Source of the DNA: Klenkia sp. PcliD-1-E
Lineage (GTDB): Bacteria; Actinomycetota; Actinomycetes; Mycobacteriales; Geodermatophilaceae
DNA length: 53,523 bases
Assembly: GCF_024124375.1 (NCBI RefSeq)
Contig: NZ_JAMXRZ010000008.1
Location: forward strand, 1-53,523
Direction: 5' to 3'
In this document: one piece after another, positions 1,382 through 39,353 of the stretch
Numbering within the stretch: the first letter of the stretch is position 1
How the letters are laid out: the number at the start of each line of letters is the position of its first letter
Translations under genes and position numbers: made by a program
Notes under the pieces: generated by a model
The model's database searches: none
Seen by the model: only the letters and a program-made list of their open reading frames with translations
What the model was told of the DNA's origin: nothing

Positions 1382-3049
1382 ATGAGCGGCACGTTGCAGG
1401 TGGACGCCGACCGCCCCGGGGCCTATCCCACCCTCGCCGAGGCGCTGCTGGACGCGCCGTCCGGGGCCACCGTCGTGGTGGCCGCCGGCAGCTACGACGA
1501 GGTGCTCGACGTCCGCGCGCGCGACCTCGTGATCACCGCGGCCCCCGACGCCGAGGTCCGGGTCGGCGGCTCGGCGCACGAGCCGACGCTGCGGGTGCGC
1601 GGCGGCGCCGTCACCGTCCGCGGCCTGGTGCTGGTCGGCCGGCAGGCGCACGTCGTGGACGCCGAGGAGGCCCGCCTGGTCCTCGCCGACTGCGTGCTGG
1701 AGGCCGGCCACGGCGCCGGGGTGCGGGTGACCGACCGCAGCACGCTGGAGATGACCGACTGCACCGTCACCGGCGCCCAGCAGGGCCTGGTGGTCGAGGA
1801 CTCCGGCGGCACCCTGGAGCGGGTCACCGTCGCCGACAGCGCCGACGACGCGGTGGTGGTGCGGCTGGGCGCCGACCCCGTGCTGCGGGACTGCGTGGTC
1901 CGCGGTTCCGGTGCGCGCGGGGTCTACGCCTACGCCTCGGCCCGCCCGGTGCTGGAGGGCTGCGAGGTCGAGACCTCCGGCGGCCCCGGGGTGGCGGTCG
2001 CGCAGGGCGCGTCGGCGACGCTGCGCCGGTGCTCGGTGCGCGGGACCGGTGGCCCGGACGTCGAGTTCGGCGCCGGGACGTCGGGCCGGGTCGAGGCCTG
2101 CCGGACCGAGCGCACCGGCGACGCCGGGGTGTCGGTCGCCGCCGGGGCCGACGTCGCGGTCACCGAGGCACCCGCGGCGGCCTCGGTCGGGGTGGGCAGC
2201 TCCCCCAGCGCGAAGGGCGACCCGGAGCGGGTGGAGCAGCTGCTGGCCGAGCTCGACGCGATGGTGGGGCTGGCCGGCGTCAAGGCCGAGGTCCGCTCGA
2301 TCATCGACGAGATCCAGGTCAACGAGTGGCGGCGGGCGGCGGGCCTGGCCGTCGGCGGGGCCAGCCACCACCTGGTCTTCGCCGGCGCACCCGGCACCGG
2401 CAAGACCACCGTGGGTCGCATCTACGGCCAGCTGCTGGCCGCCCTCGGCGTGCTCCCGGGCGGGCCGCTGAAGGAGGTCTCGCGCCGCGACCTGGTCGGC
2501 CAGTACATCGGGCACACCGCGGAGAAGACCGCGGCGGTGTTCGACGAGGCGGCCGGCGGCGTGGTGTTCCTGGACGAGGCCTACACGCTCACCCGCCAGG
2601 CGGGGGGCGGGGGCAACGACTTCGGCCAGGAGGCGGTCGACATGATCGTCAAGCTGATGGAGGACCGCCGCGACTCCCTCGCCGTCATCGCCGCCGGCTA
2701 CACCGACGAGATGGTGCAGTTCCTCGACGCCAACCCGGGCCTGGCCTCGCGGTTCGTCAAGACGGTGGAGTTCGAGAACTACGGGCCCGAGGAGCTCACC
2801 CGGATCATCACCAGCATGATCACCAGCGGTGACTACCTGCTCGGACCGCAGGCGGGCGCGATGCTGCGGCTGCACTTCGAGACCGTGCCGCGCGGCGCCG
2901 ACTTCGGCAACGCCCGCGAGGCCCGCAAGCTGTTCGAGAAGCTGCGGAAGGTGCAGTCCCAGCGGCTGCGGCTCGTGGGCCGGCAGCCGACCCTGGAGGA
3001 GCTGCAGACCCTCACCGTCGACGACGTCCGGGTCGCGGTCGCCGACTAG
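1382..3049 (+). CDS. Beta-helix domain fused to a CbxX/CfqX (EccA-like) AAA+ ATPase
   Basis: 555 residues in two parts. Residues about 15-260 form a right-handed parallel beta-helix: repeated short rungs such as VRVTDRSTLEMTDC, PVLRDCVVRGSG and PVLEGCEVETSG, as in pectate-lyase/periplasmic-copper-binding repeat proteins. Residues about 280-555 are an AAA+ module of the CbxX/CfqX/SpoVK family, to which the ESX chaperone EccA belongs. It has Walker A GAPGTGKTT at 335-343, Walker B VVFLDE at 394-399, a disordered glycine-rich loop after it, and a sensor-like SRF. The ATPase probably remodels or unfolds a protein substrate, and the helix may act as recognition platform. AGGAG precedes the ATG. 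Neighbouring SseB and MinD-like genes support a type VII secretion context; no WXG100 or EccC gene lies in the window. Confidence 0.87.
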   Translation: MSGTLQVDADRPGAYPTLAEALLDAPSGATVVVAAGSYDEVLDVRARDLVITAAPDAEVRVGGSAHEPTLRVRGGAVTVRGLVLVGRQAHVVDAEEARLVLADCVLEAGHGAGVRVTDRSTLEMTDCTVTGAQQGLVVEDSGGTLERVTVADSADDAVVVRLGADPVLRDCVVRGSGARGVYAYASARPVLEGCEVETSGGPGVAVAQGASATLRRCSVRGTGGPDVEFGAGTSGRVEACRTERTGDAGVSVAAGADVAVTEAPAAASVGVGSSPSAKGDPERVEQLLAELDAMVGLAGVKAEVRSIIDEIQVNEWRRAAGLAVGGASHHLVFAGAPGTGKTTVGRIYGQLLAALGVLPGGPLKEVSRRDLVGQYIGHTAEKTAAVFDEAAGGVVFLDEAYTLTRQAGGGGNDFGQEAVDMIVKLMEDRRDSLAVIAAGYTDEMVQFLDANPGLASRFVKTVEFENYGPEELTRIITSMITSGDYLLGPQAGAMLRLHFETVPRGADFGNAREARKLFEKLRKVQSQRLRLVGRQPTLEELQTLTVDDVRVAVAD

Positions 3050-9117: not shown

Positions 9118-9147
9118 GCCGGACCGCACCCGCGGGTGCGGTCCGGC
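9118..9147 (+). terminator. Perfect hairpin after lipoprotein gene 1
   Basis: Arms 9118-9131 and 9134-9147 are perfectly complementary over 14 bp, with GC at the centre. There is no U tract, as is common in high-GC actinomycetes. It lies 7 nt after the stop codon and separates the two paralogues, so the second gene may be partly insulated. Confidence 0.6.
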
Positions 9148-9701: not shown

Positions 9702-9741
9702 CGACGGAGGCCCGGTCCCACCAGGGACCGGGCCTCCGTCG
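9702..9741. terminator. Bidirectional terminator between lipoprotein gene 2 and the M23 peptidase gene
   Basis: An 18-bp perfect stem (9702-9719 with 9724-9741) closes a 4-nt loop. It sits between two convergent stop codons only 57 bp apart, so it can serve both strands. Confidence 0.75.
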
Positions 9742-16390: not shown

Positions 16391-16422
16391 CGGCACCGCC
16401 GTCCCCCGGGACGGCGGTGCCG
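16391..16422. terminator. Bidirectional terminator between the DUF3073 gene and purM
   Basis: A perfect 15-bp stem, 16391-16405 with 16408-16422, with only two central bases between. It sits between convergent genes; TT follows on the plus strand. Confidence 0.7.
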
Positions 16423-35239: not shown

Positions 35240-35262
35240 CTGACATGACAGAAGATTGTCAG
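35240..35262. promoter_or_regulatory. Dyad in the rsgA/GDPD divergent region
   Basis: CTGACA (35240-35245) and TGTCAG (35257-35262) form an inverted repeat with an 11-nt centre, in a 22-bp AT-rich patch. This is the layout of a dimeric repressor or activator site; no regulator gene is adjacent. Confidence 0.35.
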
Positions 35263-35298
35263 GTGCCGTTCGCCATCGAGACACCTGGAGCGGGTGTT

Positions 35299-36315
35299 GT
35301 GAGCACCATGCACGAGACCGGTCTGGCGACCGCCACCGCCACCCGCCTGCGCGCCCGGCGGCCGGCGGTGATCGGTCACCGCGGGGCCGCCGCGCACCGG
35401 CCCGAGCACACCCGGGCCGGCTACGAGCTGGCCGCCGAGCTCGGCGCCGACCGGGTCGAGCCCGACGTCGTCGTCAGCCGGGACGGCGCGCTGGTCGTCC
35501 GGCACGAGAACGAGCTGTCGCTGAGCACCGACGTCGCCGCGCACCCGGGGTTCGCCCACCGCCGCCGCACCCAGGAGGTCGCCGGCGTGGAGACCACCGG
35601 GTGGTTCGTGGAGGACTTCACCCTGGCCGAGCTGCGCACGCTGCGCGCCGTCGAGCGCTGGCCGCACCTGCGCCCGGGCGGCACCCTGCACGAGGGGACC
35701 GTGCTGACCCTGCGCGAGGTCGTGGAGATCGCCCGCGCCCGCGGGATCGGGGTGCAGGCCGAGCTGAAGAACCCGTCCTGGTCGGCCTCGGTCGGGCTGC
35801 CCATGGTCGAGCTGGCCTGCGCCGAGGTCGGCGCGGCGCCCGACGTGGTGTGGCAGAGCTTCGACGTGGCCGGCGTGCAGGAGCTGCGCGCCCGGCTCGG
35901 GGCCGCGGCGTCCCTGGTCCAGCTGGTCGGCGACGAGCCCGCGCACGACCACCTGGTCACCCCCGCCGGGCTGCGCGGGATCAGCACCTACGCCGGCGGG
36001 ATCGGGCCGTCCAAGCACCGCGTGCTGCTGCGCGACGCGGAGGGCACCCTGGTCGGCGTCTCCGACCTGGTCGCGCAGGCGCACCGGGCCGGCCTCACCG
36101 TCGCGCCGTTCACCGTGCGTGCCGAGAACGCCTTCCTGCCGCTGCACCTGCGCCGGGGCACCGACCCCGCCGGGCTCGGCGACGCCGGCACCGAGACCCG
36201 CCTGCTGCTGGCGCTGGGCGTCGACGGGCTGATCACCGACAACCCGGAGATCGCCGTCCGGGAGCGCGCCGCCCTCGCCGCCCCCGCCCTGGCCCCCGTC
36301 CGCCCCCGCCCCTGA
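35299..36315 (+). CDS. Glycerophosphodiester phosphodiesterase
   Basis: 338 residues. The GDPD barrel begins VIGHRGAAAHRPEHTRAGY with catalytic His-Arg and the metal Glu, then GADRVEPDVVVSRDGALVVRHENEL with the second His, and later VQAELKN, VWQSFD and a final DGLITDNPE. It hydrolyses glycerophosphodiesters to glycerol 3-phosphate plus an alcohol. No signal peptide, so probably cytoplasmic. The GTG at 35299 with GGAG upstream is preferred; ATG 35245 would place the start inside the dyad region. Confidence 0.9.
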   Translation: MSTMHETGLATATATRLRARRPAVIGHRGAAAHRPEHTRAGYELAAELGADRVEPDVVVSRDGALVVRHENELSLSTDVAAHPGFAHRRRTQEVAGVETTGWFVEDFTLAELRTLRAVERWPHLRPGGTLHEGTVLTLREVVEIARARGIGVQAELKNPSWSASVGLPMVELACAEVGAAPDVVWQSFDVAGVQELRARLGAAASLVQLVGDEPAHDHLVTPAGLRGISTYAGGIGPSKHRVLLRDAEGTLVGVSDLVAQAHRAGLTVAPFTVRAENAFLPLHLRRGTDPAGLGDAGTETRLLLALGVDGLITDNPEIAVRERAALAAPALAPVRPRP

Positions 36316-36325
36316 CGCCTGCCCG

Positions 36326-36391
36326 CGACGGATCCCGGGGTTCTCGCCCCCTCCACTCCTGGTGAGTGGGCGGCAACCCCGGGATCCGTCG
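36326..36391. repeat. Large palindromic extragenic element, copy 1
   Basis: Arms 36326-36342 and 36375-36391 are perfectly complementary over 17 bp. Between them, the sequence ctcgccccctccactc and gagtgggcgg gives further partial pairing, so the whole unit could fold into a 66-nt hairpin. It shares the core atcccggggttctcgccc with the element at 37310-37365. It sits 10 bp after the GDPD stop and may also terminate it. Confidence 0.8.
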
Positions 36392-36442
36392 TCGCTGTGG
36401 ACAAGATCCACATGCCGTCGCAAGGAGCGTCACCCTGCGTGG

Positions 36443-37299
36443 GTGATCGCGCCGCTCCGTCCTCCCCAGCTCGTCGGCCGGGTCTTCCTCGGTTCCGACG
36501 CCGTCGCCCAGGGCCTGCTGACCCCGAAGCAGTTGCGGTCGTCGGCCTGGCAGCGGCCCCTCCGCGGTGTCTACGCCGATGCCGGGTTGCCCGCGGGACC
36601 GTTGCTGCAGATCCGGGCGGCGCGGCTCGTCCTCCCGCCCGGCGCGGCGTTCAGCGGGCGGACGTCGGCTTGGCTGCACGGTGCCGGCGCGGCGATGGAC
36701 GTCGGCGACCCCGTGGAGGTCTCCACCCCGGCCCGGTGGGGGCCCGTGGCCGGCCTGACCATCAGGGAGGTGGCGCTCCCGCCCCAGGACGTGGTGGTCC
36801 ACCGCGGGGTGCGCTGCACGTCCGTGGTGCGCACCGGCCTCGACGTCGCCCGGTCGGGTCCCGCCGAGGAGACCGTCCCCGTGCTCGACCAGCTGCTGGC
36901 CGCCACCGGGGTGCCCGTGACCCGTCTGCTGGCCACCGCCGCGCGATGCGGGCCGGAGGCCCTGACCGCGATCTGCTGGACCGACAGACGTGCGGAGTCA
37001 CCCCCGAGTCGCTGGTGCGGGTGCAGCTGCGCCGCCGGGGGCTCGTGGCCGTACCGCAGTTCGTCGTGCGCGACGGCCGCGGCGGCTTCGTCGCCCGGGT
37101 CGACCTGGCCTTCCCCGAGCAGCGGGTGGCCGTGGAGTACGACGGCGCCTGGCACGCCGAGGAAGGGCAGTTCGCCCGCGACCGGCGCCGGCTGAACGCA
37201 CTGCTGGCCGCAGGCTGGCGGGTCGTGCACCTGACCGCCGCCGACCTGCACCGGCCAGAGGTGGTCGCCGCTCAGGTCGTCGCCGCCCTCGCCGCCTGA
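36443..37299 (+). pseudogene. DUF559/AbiEi-like protein with C-terminal Vsr-type nuclease, frameshifted
   Basis: The N-terminal part (frame of GTG 36443) has an AbiEi-like winged helix, GSDAVAQGLLTPKQLRS and RPLRGVYADAGLP, then FSGRTSAWLHG. The C-terminal part is the DUF559 nuclease fold: VARVDLAFPEQRVAVEYDGAWH, AEEGQFARDRRRLNALLAAGW and VVHLTAADL, with D and E-x-D positions of the PD-(D/E)xK/Vsr core. The halves are in different frames. Frame 1 reads RAESPP and the other resumes PESLVRVQL, so a single base seems lost in the C tract at 37001-37005 (six Cs would restore AESPPESLVRVQL and a 285-residue protein). Could be a pseudogene, a sequencing error in a homopolymer, or a slippery site. Bracketed by two palindromes. 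Confidence 0.82.
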
Positions 37300-37309
37300 G
37301 TCGTTCATC

Positions 37310-37365
37310 CATCCCGGGGTTGTCGCCCTCTCACGGAGGTCGGAGAGGGCGAGAACCCCGGGATG
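37310..37365. repeat. Large palindromic extragenic element, copy 2
   Basis: Arms 37310-37332 and 37343-37365 pair over 23 positions with one mismatch, around a 10-nt loop. The core atcccggggttctcgccc is shared with copy 1 at 36326-36391. It lies between the convergent DUF559-like gene and purA and probably acts as a terminator for both. Confidence 0.82.

Positions 37366-37385: not shown

Positions 37386-39353
<1,968 letters not shown>

Follow-up and report, generated by a model that had tools for sequence, protein, structure and literature searches.

In many actinobacteria, DUF559-type nuclease genes are often framed by a pair of similar palindromes that is private to the enzyme; the association is real and general. 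From its modeled fold, the protein encoded between the palindromes is predicted to be an AbiEi antitoxin, a fold that binds inverted repeats, joined to a homing-endonuclease domain of the I-Bth0305I-like kind. Bracketing of the gene, private sequence of each pair, dispersed solo copies, species-specific versions, and filled and unfilled slots were all observed. We consider it fairly probable that they belong to a REP-like system of palindromes in which an AbiEi-Vsr nuclease takes the place of the RAYT transposase.

Palindromes and Nuclease Gene of the Window Locus

The window, i.e., the whole stretch of DNA that was analyzed (53,523 bases), belongs to the source genome (G000), which was compared with the genus genomes G001–G008; its nearest named relatives are species of Klenkia (Geodermatophilaceae). 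The slot between the GDPD and purA genes of the window is composed as follows:

35245..36315, strand +: GDPD gene, left border of the slot
36326..36391, no strand: imperfect palindrome of 66 nt on the upstream side, separated from the GDPD stop codon by 10 nt
36443..37006, strand +: AbiEi-like head, in one frame (positions 2–194 of profile A2 correspond to 36446–37006; AbiEi fold from homologues)
36987..37299, strand +: Vsr/DUF559 (MTES_1575) nuclease tail, in another frame (PF18741, 7.8e-8; PF04480, 6.7e-6)
37310..37365, no strand: palindrome of 56 nt on the downstream side, separated from the nuclease stop codon by 10 nt and followed by the convergent purA
37386..38675, strand −: adenylosuccinate synthetase gene purA, which borders the slot on the right, named from its sequence alone

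Both hairpins reported in the initial annotation were confirmed at these positions as strong and related structures. The upstream hairpin has arms of 28 nt that are 89% complementary and a folding energy of −57.3 kcal/mol (z −7.3); the corresponding values for the downstream hairpin are 23 nt, 96%, and −50.5 kcal/mol (z −7.8), and in both cases 0 of 200 shuffles were as good. They are the best two among the five hairpins scoring at least 13 in the window and are related over a 54-nt core (score 66). In the upstream hairpin, the left arm carries the shared 18-bp core without mismatch, and in the downstream one the right arm does so in reverse orientation; the two remaining arms contain 2 and 1 mismatches, respectively. 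The search of Rfam gave no match in the window. The three further hairpins, at 9702–9741, 9118–9147, and 16391–16422, have perfect stems of 18, 14, and 15 bp, respectively, and are probably ordinary terminators.

The single gene with an AbiEi-like head and a DUF559 tail proposed in the initial annotation was supported as regards its domains, by Pfam for the tail and by the family profile and homologues for the head, but the window copy is broken. Its reading frame is interrupted near 37,000, between head and tail, and the same-site homologues in four genus genomes (G001–G004) are intact and read through. The window copy is thus either a pseudogene or, in this draft assembly of 262 contigs, affected by a sequencing error. 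The head of the window gene gave no match in the Pfam search and aligns to the family profile (A2), and all ten intact homologues (10/10) matched the PADLOC AbiEi models (best value 4.6e-21; 4.6e-12 for the closest homologue, L050). According to the fold prediction made for both domains, the head, as modeled from homologues, contains a putative AbiEi-fold antitoxin domain, and the tail has a Vsr-like fold with the predicted catalytic domain of a known homing-endonuclease family. The profile of the window subfamily (A2) matches proteins in 111 of the 148 genomes sampled across the class.

Palindrome Pairs at Other DUF559 Loci

Self-comparison of the eight DUF559 loci listed for the source genome, a count that leaves out an MTES_1575 match at C247 and the remainder of the 13 A2 matches, revealed a related palindrome pair approximately 1 kb apart at seven of them. 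The weakest pair (L010) is 75% identical (E 1e-5). The eighth locus (L014), which reads as a plain Vsr-like gene, has no palindrome pair. The seven pairs represent seven different sequences of ~60 bp, each locus having its own. The 18-bp core was rejected as a recurring unit, since the other DUF559 loci listed for the source genome have different palindromes; the suggestion that palindromes recur at the gene family was borne out for locus-specific pairs, which occur far above control, but not for this core.

The first set of loci for comparison comprised 60 regions from 20 genomes of the same genus and family, taken roughly in the order of the matches listed and leaving out very long open frames, many matches close to the end of a contig, the last entries listed, and order-level genomes. 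Together with the seven own loci and four GDPD-site loci, this gave 71 loci, of which 70 were scored after L107, with an unclear frame, had been dropped; the controlled test included 68, the flanks being too short at L010 and L103, both of which have a pair. A pair score of at least 40 was found in 49 of these 68 loci vs. 9 of 3,146 control positions with the same geometry in the same regions. For the set of named genomes, the corresponding counts were 39/77 (three of 80 loci were dropped at contig ends) and 6/2,695. Eight of the 77 loci were already in the first set, all with scores of at least 40, and the new loci alone gave 31/69; the score of the K. soli locus is identical to that of the G004 locus. 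The positives of this set include one each from Micromonospora (one of five loci), Catellatospora, Gandjariella, and an Acidimicrobiales MAG. In a third, class-wide set, which had no matched control, 18 of 28 loci reached 40 (two of 30 were dropped). Loci scoring below 40 numbered 19/68, 38/77, and 10/28 in the three sets, respectively. L292, containing the gene of L013 that is paired according to self-comparison, scored only 20 in the class-wide set, and we suspect the offset chosen as the reason.

Pairing of mismatched loci was rejected as a control (maximum 637; 99th percentile 315, with no true pair above 315) because it is spoiled by overlapping and orthologous loci, and same-region sliding positions were used instead. 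Covariation of nucleases and palindromes was modest overall (Spearman 0.21 vs. a maximum of 0.11 in 500 permutations; 11 of 48 proteins were dropped for start choice), and part of it is due to same-site orthologues among the loci.

Solo Copies and Palindrome Versions

The 60-nt palindrome of the type-A nuclease is present in 13, 12, 5, and 8 copies in G000–G003, respectively, of which 11, 10, 3, and 6 are solos (30 in total, 3–11 per genome). Type-A half-sites in G000–G007 numbered 23, 24, 10, 14, 0, 3, 0, and 0, and the reversed control gave one match overall. A second version, predicted from the nuclease flanks of G004 and G006, gave 17, 14, 12, and 19 half-sites in G004–G007 and none in G000–G003 (control 0). 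It fits the nuclease flanks in three of the four genomes checked (G004, G005, and G006) and not in G007, where the nuclease is framed by a further version, the GGCATGGGAGCCCATGCACC type, which also has at least three solos in that genome; the 19 half-sites of G007 match the version of the sister species, not the GGCATGGGAGCCCATGCACC copies framing its own nuclease. In addition, G004 contains about 11 solos of the GGCATGGGAGCCCATGCACC version (GGCATGGG type), for which a framing nuclease was not located in this genome; they may be an orphan family or have lost their nuclease.

Solos with paired halves were also found for the L012 nuclease (three in G000, four in G002, and one in G003); single half-sites of this type did not exceed the reversed control, and only the paired ones stand out. 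The window-type palindrome recurs in the source genome at C111, C246, and C93, next to a palindrome of a second type. At L003 (1501–1612), L004 (1374–1620), and L006 (1180–1296) of the same genome, it lies in tandem with the second type, forming small mosaics, and this second type resembles the palindrome framing the nuclease of G001 and G002. The arrangement as a whole, with pairs framing the gene and dispersed solos, is REP/RAYT-like with an unrelated enzyme, as the initial annotation had suggested. The solos adjoin unrelated genes, yet the pairs are strongly enriched at nuclease genes, in place of the even spread that had been weighed as the opposing outcome.

In the type-A stem, positions 15 and 46 of 60 form a T·G or C·A opposition in 19 of 33 copies, with 12 paired and 2 other. 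Vsr acts on T·G mismatches. The numbers are small, and we take the opposition as a lead only; the same applies to a dip in pairing 14–18 nt from the dyad. The sharing of mismatch positions by upstream and downstream copies is expected, because the copies are related.

According to rough gene calls, 11 of the 30 solos lie in convergent gaps, 9 in codirectional ones, and 1 in a divergent one, and 9 overlap a called ORF; all gaps of at least 40 nt in the solo loci comprise 20 convergent, 37 codirectional, and 10 divergent ones. Solos are rarely located at promoters. One solo of G001 (L167, ~2983–3042) is found within a long called ORF (4,314 nt, rough call) and is perhaps an in-frame insertion.

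These positions bear on autoregulation, in which the head would bind the upstream palindrome as an operator, the downstream palindrome would act as a terminator, and the solos would be operators of a small regulon. AbiEi antitoxins are described as repressing their own promoter via inverted repeats (PMC7319586), and the upstream palindromes end a median of 29 nt before the called start. Nevertheless, a terminator has no need to copy the operator sequence, a divergent position is seen for only 1/30 solos (rough gene calls), and from one species to another the palindromes change at both ends yet still match each other, which makes autoregulation improbable as the main explanation.

Turnover and Filled Slots

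For type A, the DNA flanking the 12 loci matches across the 12 genomes that were compared, and the loci represent one site across genera. The gene itself therefore rarely moves, and the conserved site suggests prolonged vertical descent more than a mobile gene. Among the 57 type-A pairs with protein identity below 75%, the similarity of the downstream copies was at background (median 23), and that of the upstream copies had a median of 48; within one type-A locus, the two flanking copies had a median similarity of 64.5. The copies of same-site orthologues drift apart, whereas the two copies framing one gene remain similar. At the L184 site, each of G000, G001, and G004 has a palindrome of a different type, and G002 and G003 have a plain short hairpin. 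A second intergenic site contains an intact copy in G001, a decayed one in G002, a copy like the version of its own nuclease in G004, and none recognizable in G003.

Comparison of empty and filled sites, proposed in the initial annotation, was possible at the GDPD-purA slot, which is filled in some relatives and unfilled in others. The gene is present in five of the nine genus genomes and absent in four, and is hence not at the same site in all relatives. The filled slot measures 1,076–1,111 nt in three genomes and about 1.3 kb in two more, and the slot without the gene, 119–187 nt long, has one large hairpin whose sequence differs. In the GDPD-purA gap of G005–G008 (L051–L054), where the unit is absent, there is a single hairpin of 94–98 nt of the GTGGATCAGG... 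type. The GDPD-purA gene of G001 and G002 has the opposite orientation and a different palindrome.

At a further slot, a 60-nt solo of G000 corresponds to a 1,105-nt unit in a 1,824-nt gap of G006, and the aligned flanks stop 39 and 23 nt short of the solo. In G007, alignment on the left comes as close as 41 nt, after which a 1,104-nt unit begins, but on the right it resumes only 1,057 nt further along; the gap of G008 at this slot is 902 nt. The palindromes are whole on both sides at filled slots. At the slots compared, the adjoining DNA is too diverged, and none showed a junction of the whole unit that was exact to the base. L178 was rejected as a second slot of this kind, since only its left junctions line up well, and L163/L191 and L090 gave no joint alignment. 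The mobility envisaged in the initial annotation has only indirect support, from filled and unfilled slots and from the opposite orientation in two relatives, and the type-A flanks that match in 12 genomes speak against it.

Such stability would suit a housekeeping role, namely, a domesticated nuclease processing hairpins or mismatches at palindromes that serve as chromosomal work sites (e.g., terminator-like or topological), with no selfish spread. Along with the type-A gene and its matching flanks across genera, this would agree with the predicted Vsr-like fold and with the type-A protein having no match, at E 1e-6, in the collections of plasmids and phages. However, the window-type gene is present in some close relatives and missing in others, one genome holds several private families, and the palindrome sequence changes fast, all of which makes this role unlikely.

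Possible Drivers and Carriers

Two plasmid records matched the window subfamily, one with 37.5% identity over 85% and the other with an 18% piece; the phage collection gave no match. A search for Y1 transposases (PF01797, E ≤ 0.001) was negative in all eight genus genomes and positive in 5 of 14 control genomes; RAYT is therefore an unlikely driver and was rejected as a hidden one.

The latter result also concerns a MITE-like origin, i.e., palindromes moved by another transposase with the nuclease genes merely sitting between two of them. Solos do outnumber framing copies in most genomes counted, but many palindrome families exist, each tied to its own nuclease lineage, and Y1, the only class searched, was not found in the genus genomes (0/8), so we regard such an origin as very improbable. 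The least credible explanation, a chance occurrence of terminator hairpins in slots where genes converge, could appeal to the L184 site, where two relatives have an ordinary short hairpin and three have family palindromes, but it is close to refuted already by the control rates of 9/3,146 and 6/2,695.

Proposed Mechanism and Its Significance

In the REP-like system driven by the AbiEi-Vsr nuclease, which we prefer, the gene and its two palindromes would form one unit. The AbiEi-like head would recognize the palindrome, the Vsr/EDxHD-type domain would nick or cut it, as a duplex or an extruded hairpin, and repair from another copy would spread and homogenize the palindromes. As a result of recognition, cutting, and copy repair, each nuclease lineage would own a private palindrome family, consisting of the two framing copies and, where sought, a few to about a dozen solos, mostly near gene ends. 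Now and then, an intergenic slot would acquire or lose the whole palindrome-gene-palindrome unit. What we infer is that the head binds, that the palindrome is cleaved, that repair drives its copying, that the elements move, and that they are selfish.

Several points count against this model: the small number of solos, the type-A gene at one site, upstream copies more alike between species than downstream ones, the mismatches of nuclease and solos in G007 and G004, the loci scoring below 40, the modest covariation, single L012 half-sites that do not exceed control, and unit junctions that are not base-exact. We lean slightly towards the broader view that an AbiEi inverted-repeat binder combined with an EDxHD/Vsr cutting domain makes up a selfish or domesticated system that homogenizes private ~60-bp palindromes and colonizes slots, with many independent, rapidly re-specifying pairs across Actinomycetes.

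A nuclease together with its own small repeats looks like an undescribed partnership. Among open-access papers, as judged from their listings and with subscription papers and preprints lying outside, none was found that links DUF559 to such palindromes. The terms DUF559 and palindrom- co-occur in PMC8861277 and PMC9454445, which, to judge by their listings, deal with CRISPR/T6SS and NAD metabolism, and a Vsr-like protein of Caulobacter appears in PMC12907096. Literature and database searches found no role for proteins of the window subfamily, and reading the nuclease together with its private palindromes gives the subfamily a testable function. The loci provide a natural collection of nuclease-target pairs for learning how specificity changes; as an independent parallel to RAYT-REP, they also bear on the question of what sustains such pairs over long periods. 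If the model is true, it adds a further way of building a selfish or domesticated palindrome system.

Comparison with Known Systems

AbiEi antitoxins of type IV toxin-antitoxin systems, including Rv2827c, differ in that AbiEi is here fused to a nuclease; moreover, the unit in the window is one gene, with GDPD and purA as neighbors (window locus only). As for the Vsr very-short-patch repair endonuclease, the plain Vsr-like gene of L014 lacks a palindrome pair. I-Bth0305I, an EDxHD/Vsr-like homing endonuclease, has one split target site, whereas here palindromes are present at both ends and in dispersed copies, a full AbiEi-like head is attached, and no intron or intein was seen.

The system resembles REP/REPIN elements with RAYT (REPtrons), which also show a framed enzyme gene, dispersed cognate palindromes, and distinct pairs per genome, and for which co-evolution of enzyme and palindrome has been proposed (PMC3116915, PMC3733652). 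For Actinomycetota, PMC12306157 tabulates REP counts in three genomes, and its main text mentions neither RAYT nor nuclease. Unlike RAYT, an HUH tyrosine transposase, the enzyme described here is an AbiEi-Vsr nuclease by its predicted domains, and its palindromes are about 60 nt long with 3–11 solos per genome in type A, the family counted, instead of high copy numbers. The GTAG tag of REPtrons has no terminal equivalent in the type-A consensus, although copies with R = A contain GTAG internally. Because no Y1 transposase was found in the eight genus genomes and there is no terminal GTAG and no split-site arrangement, we place the system outside both REPtrons and homing endonucleases: it is not a REPtron, but it works like one.
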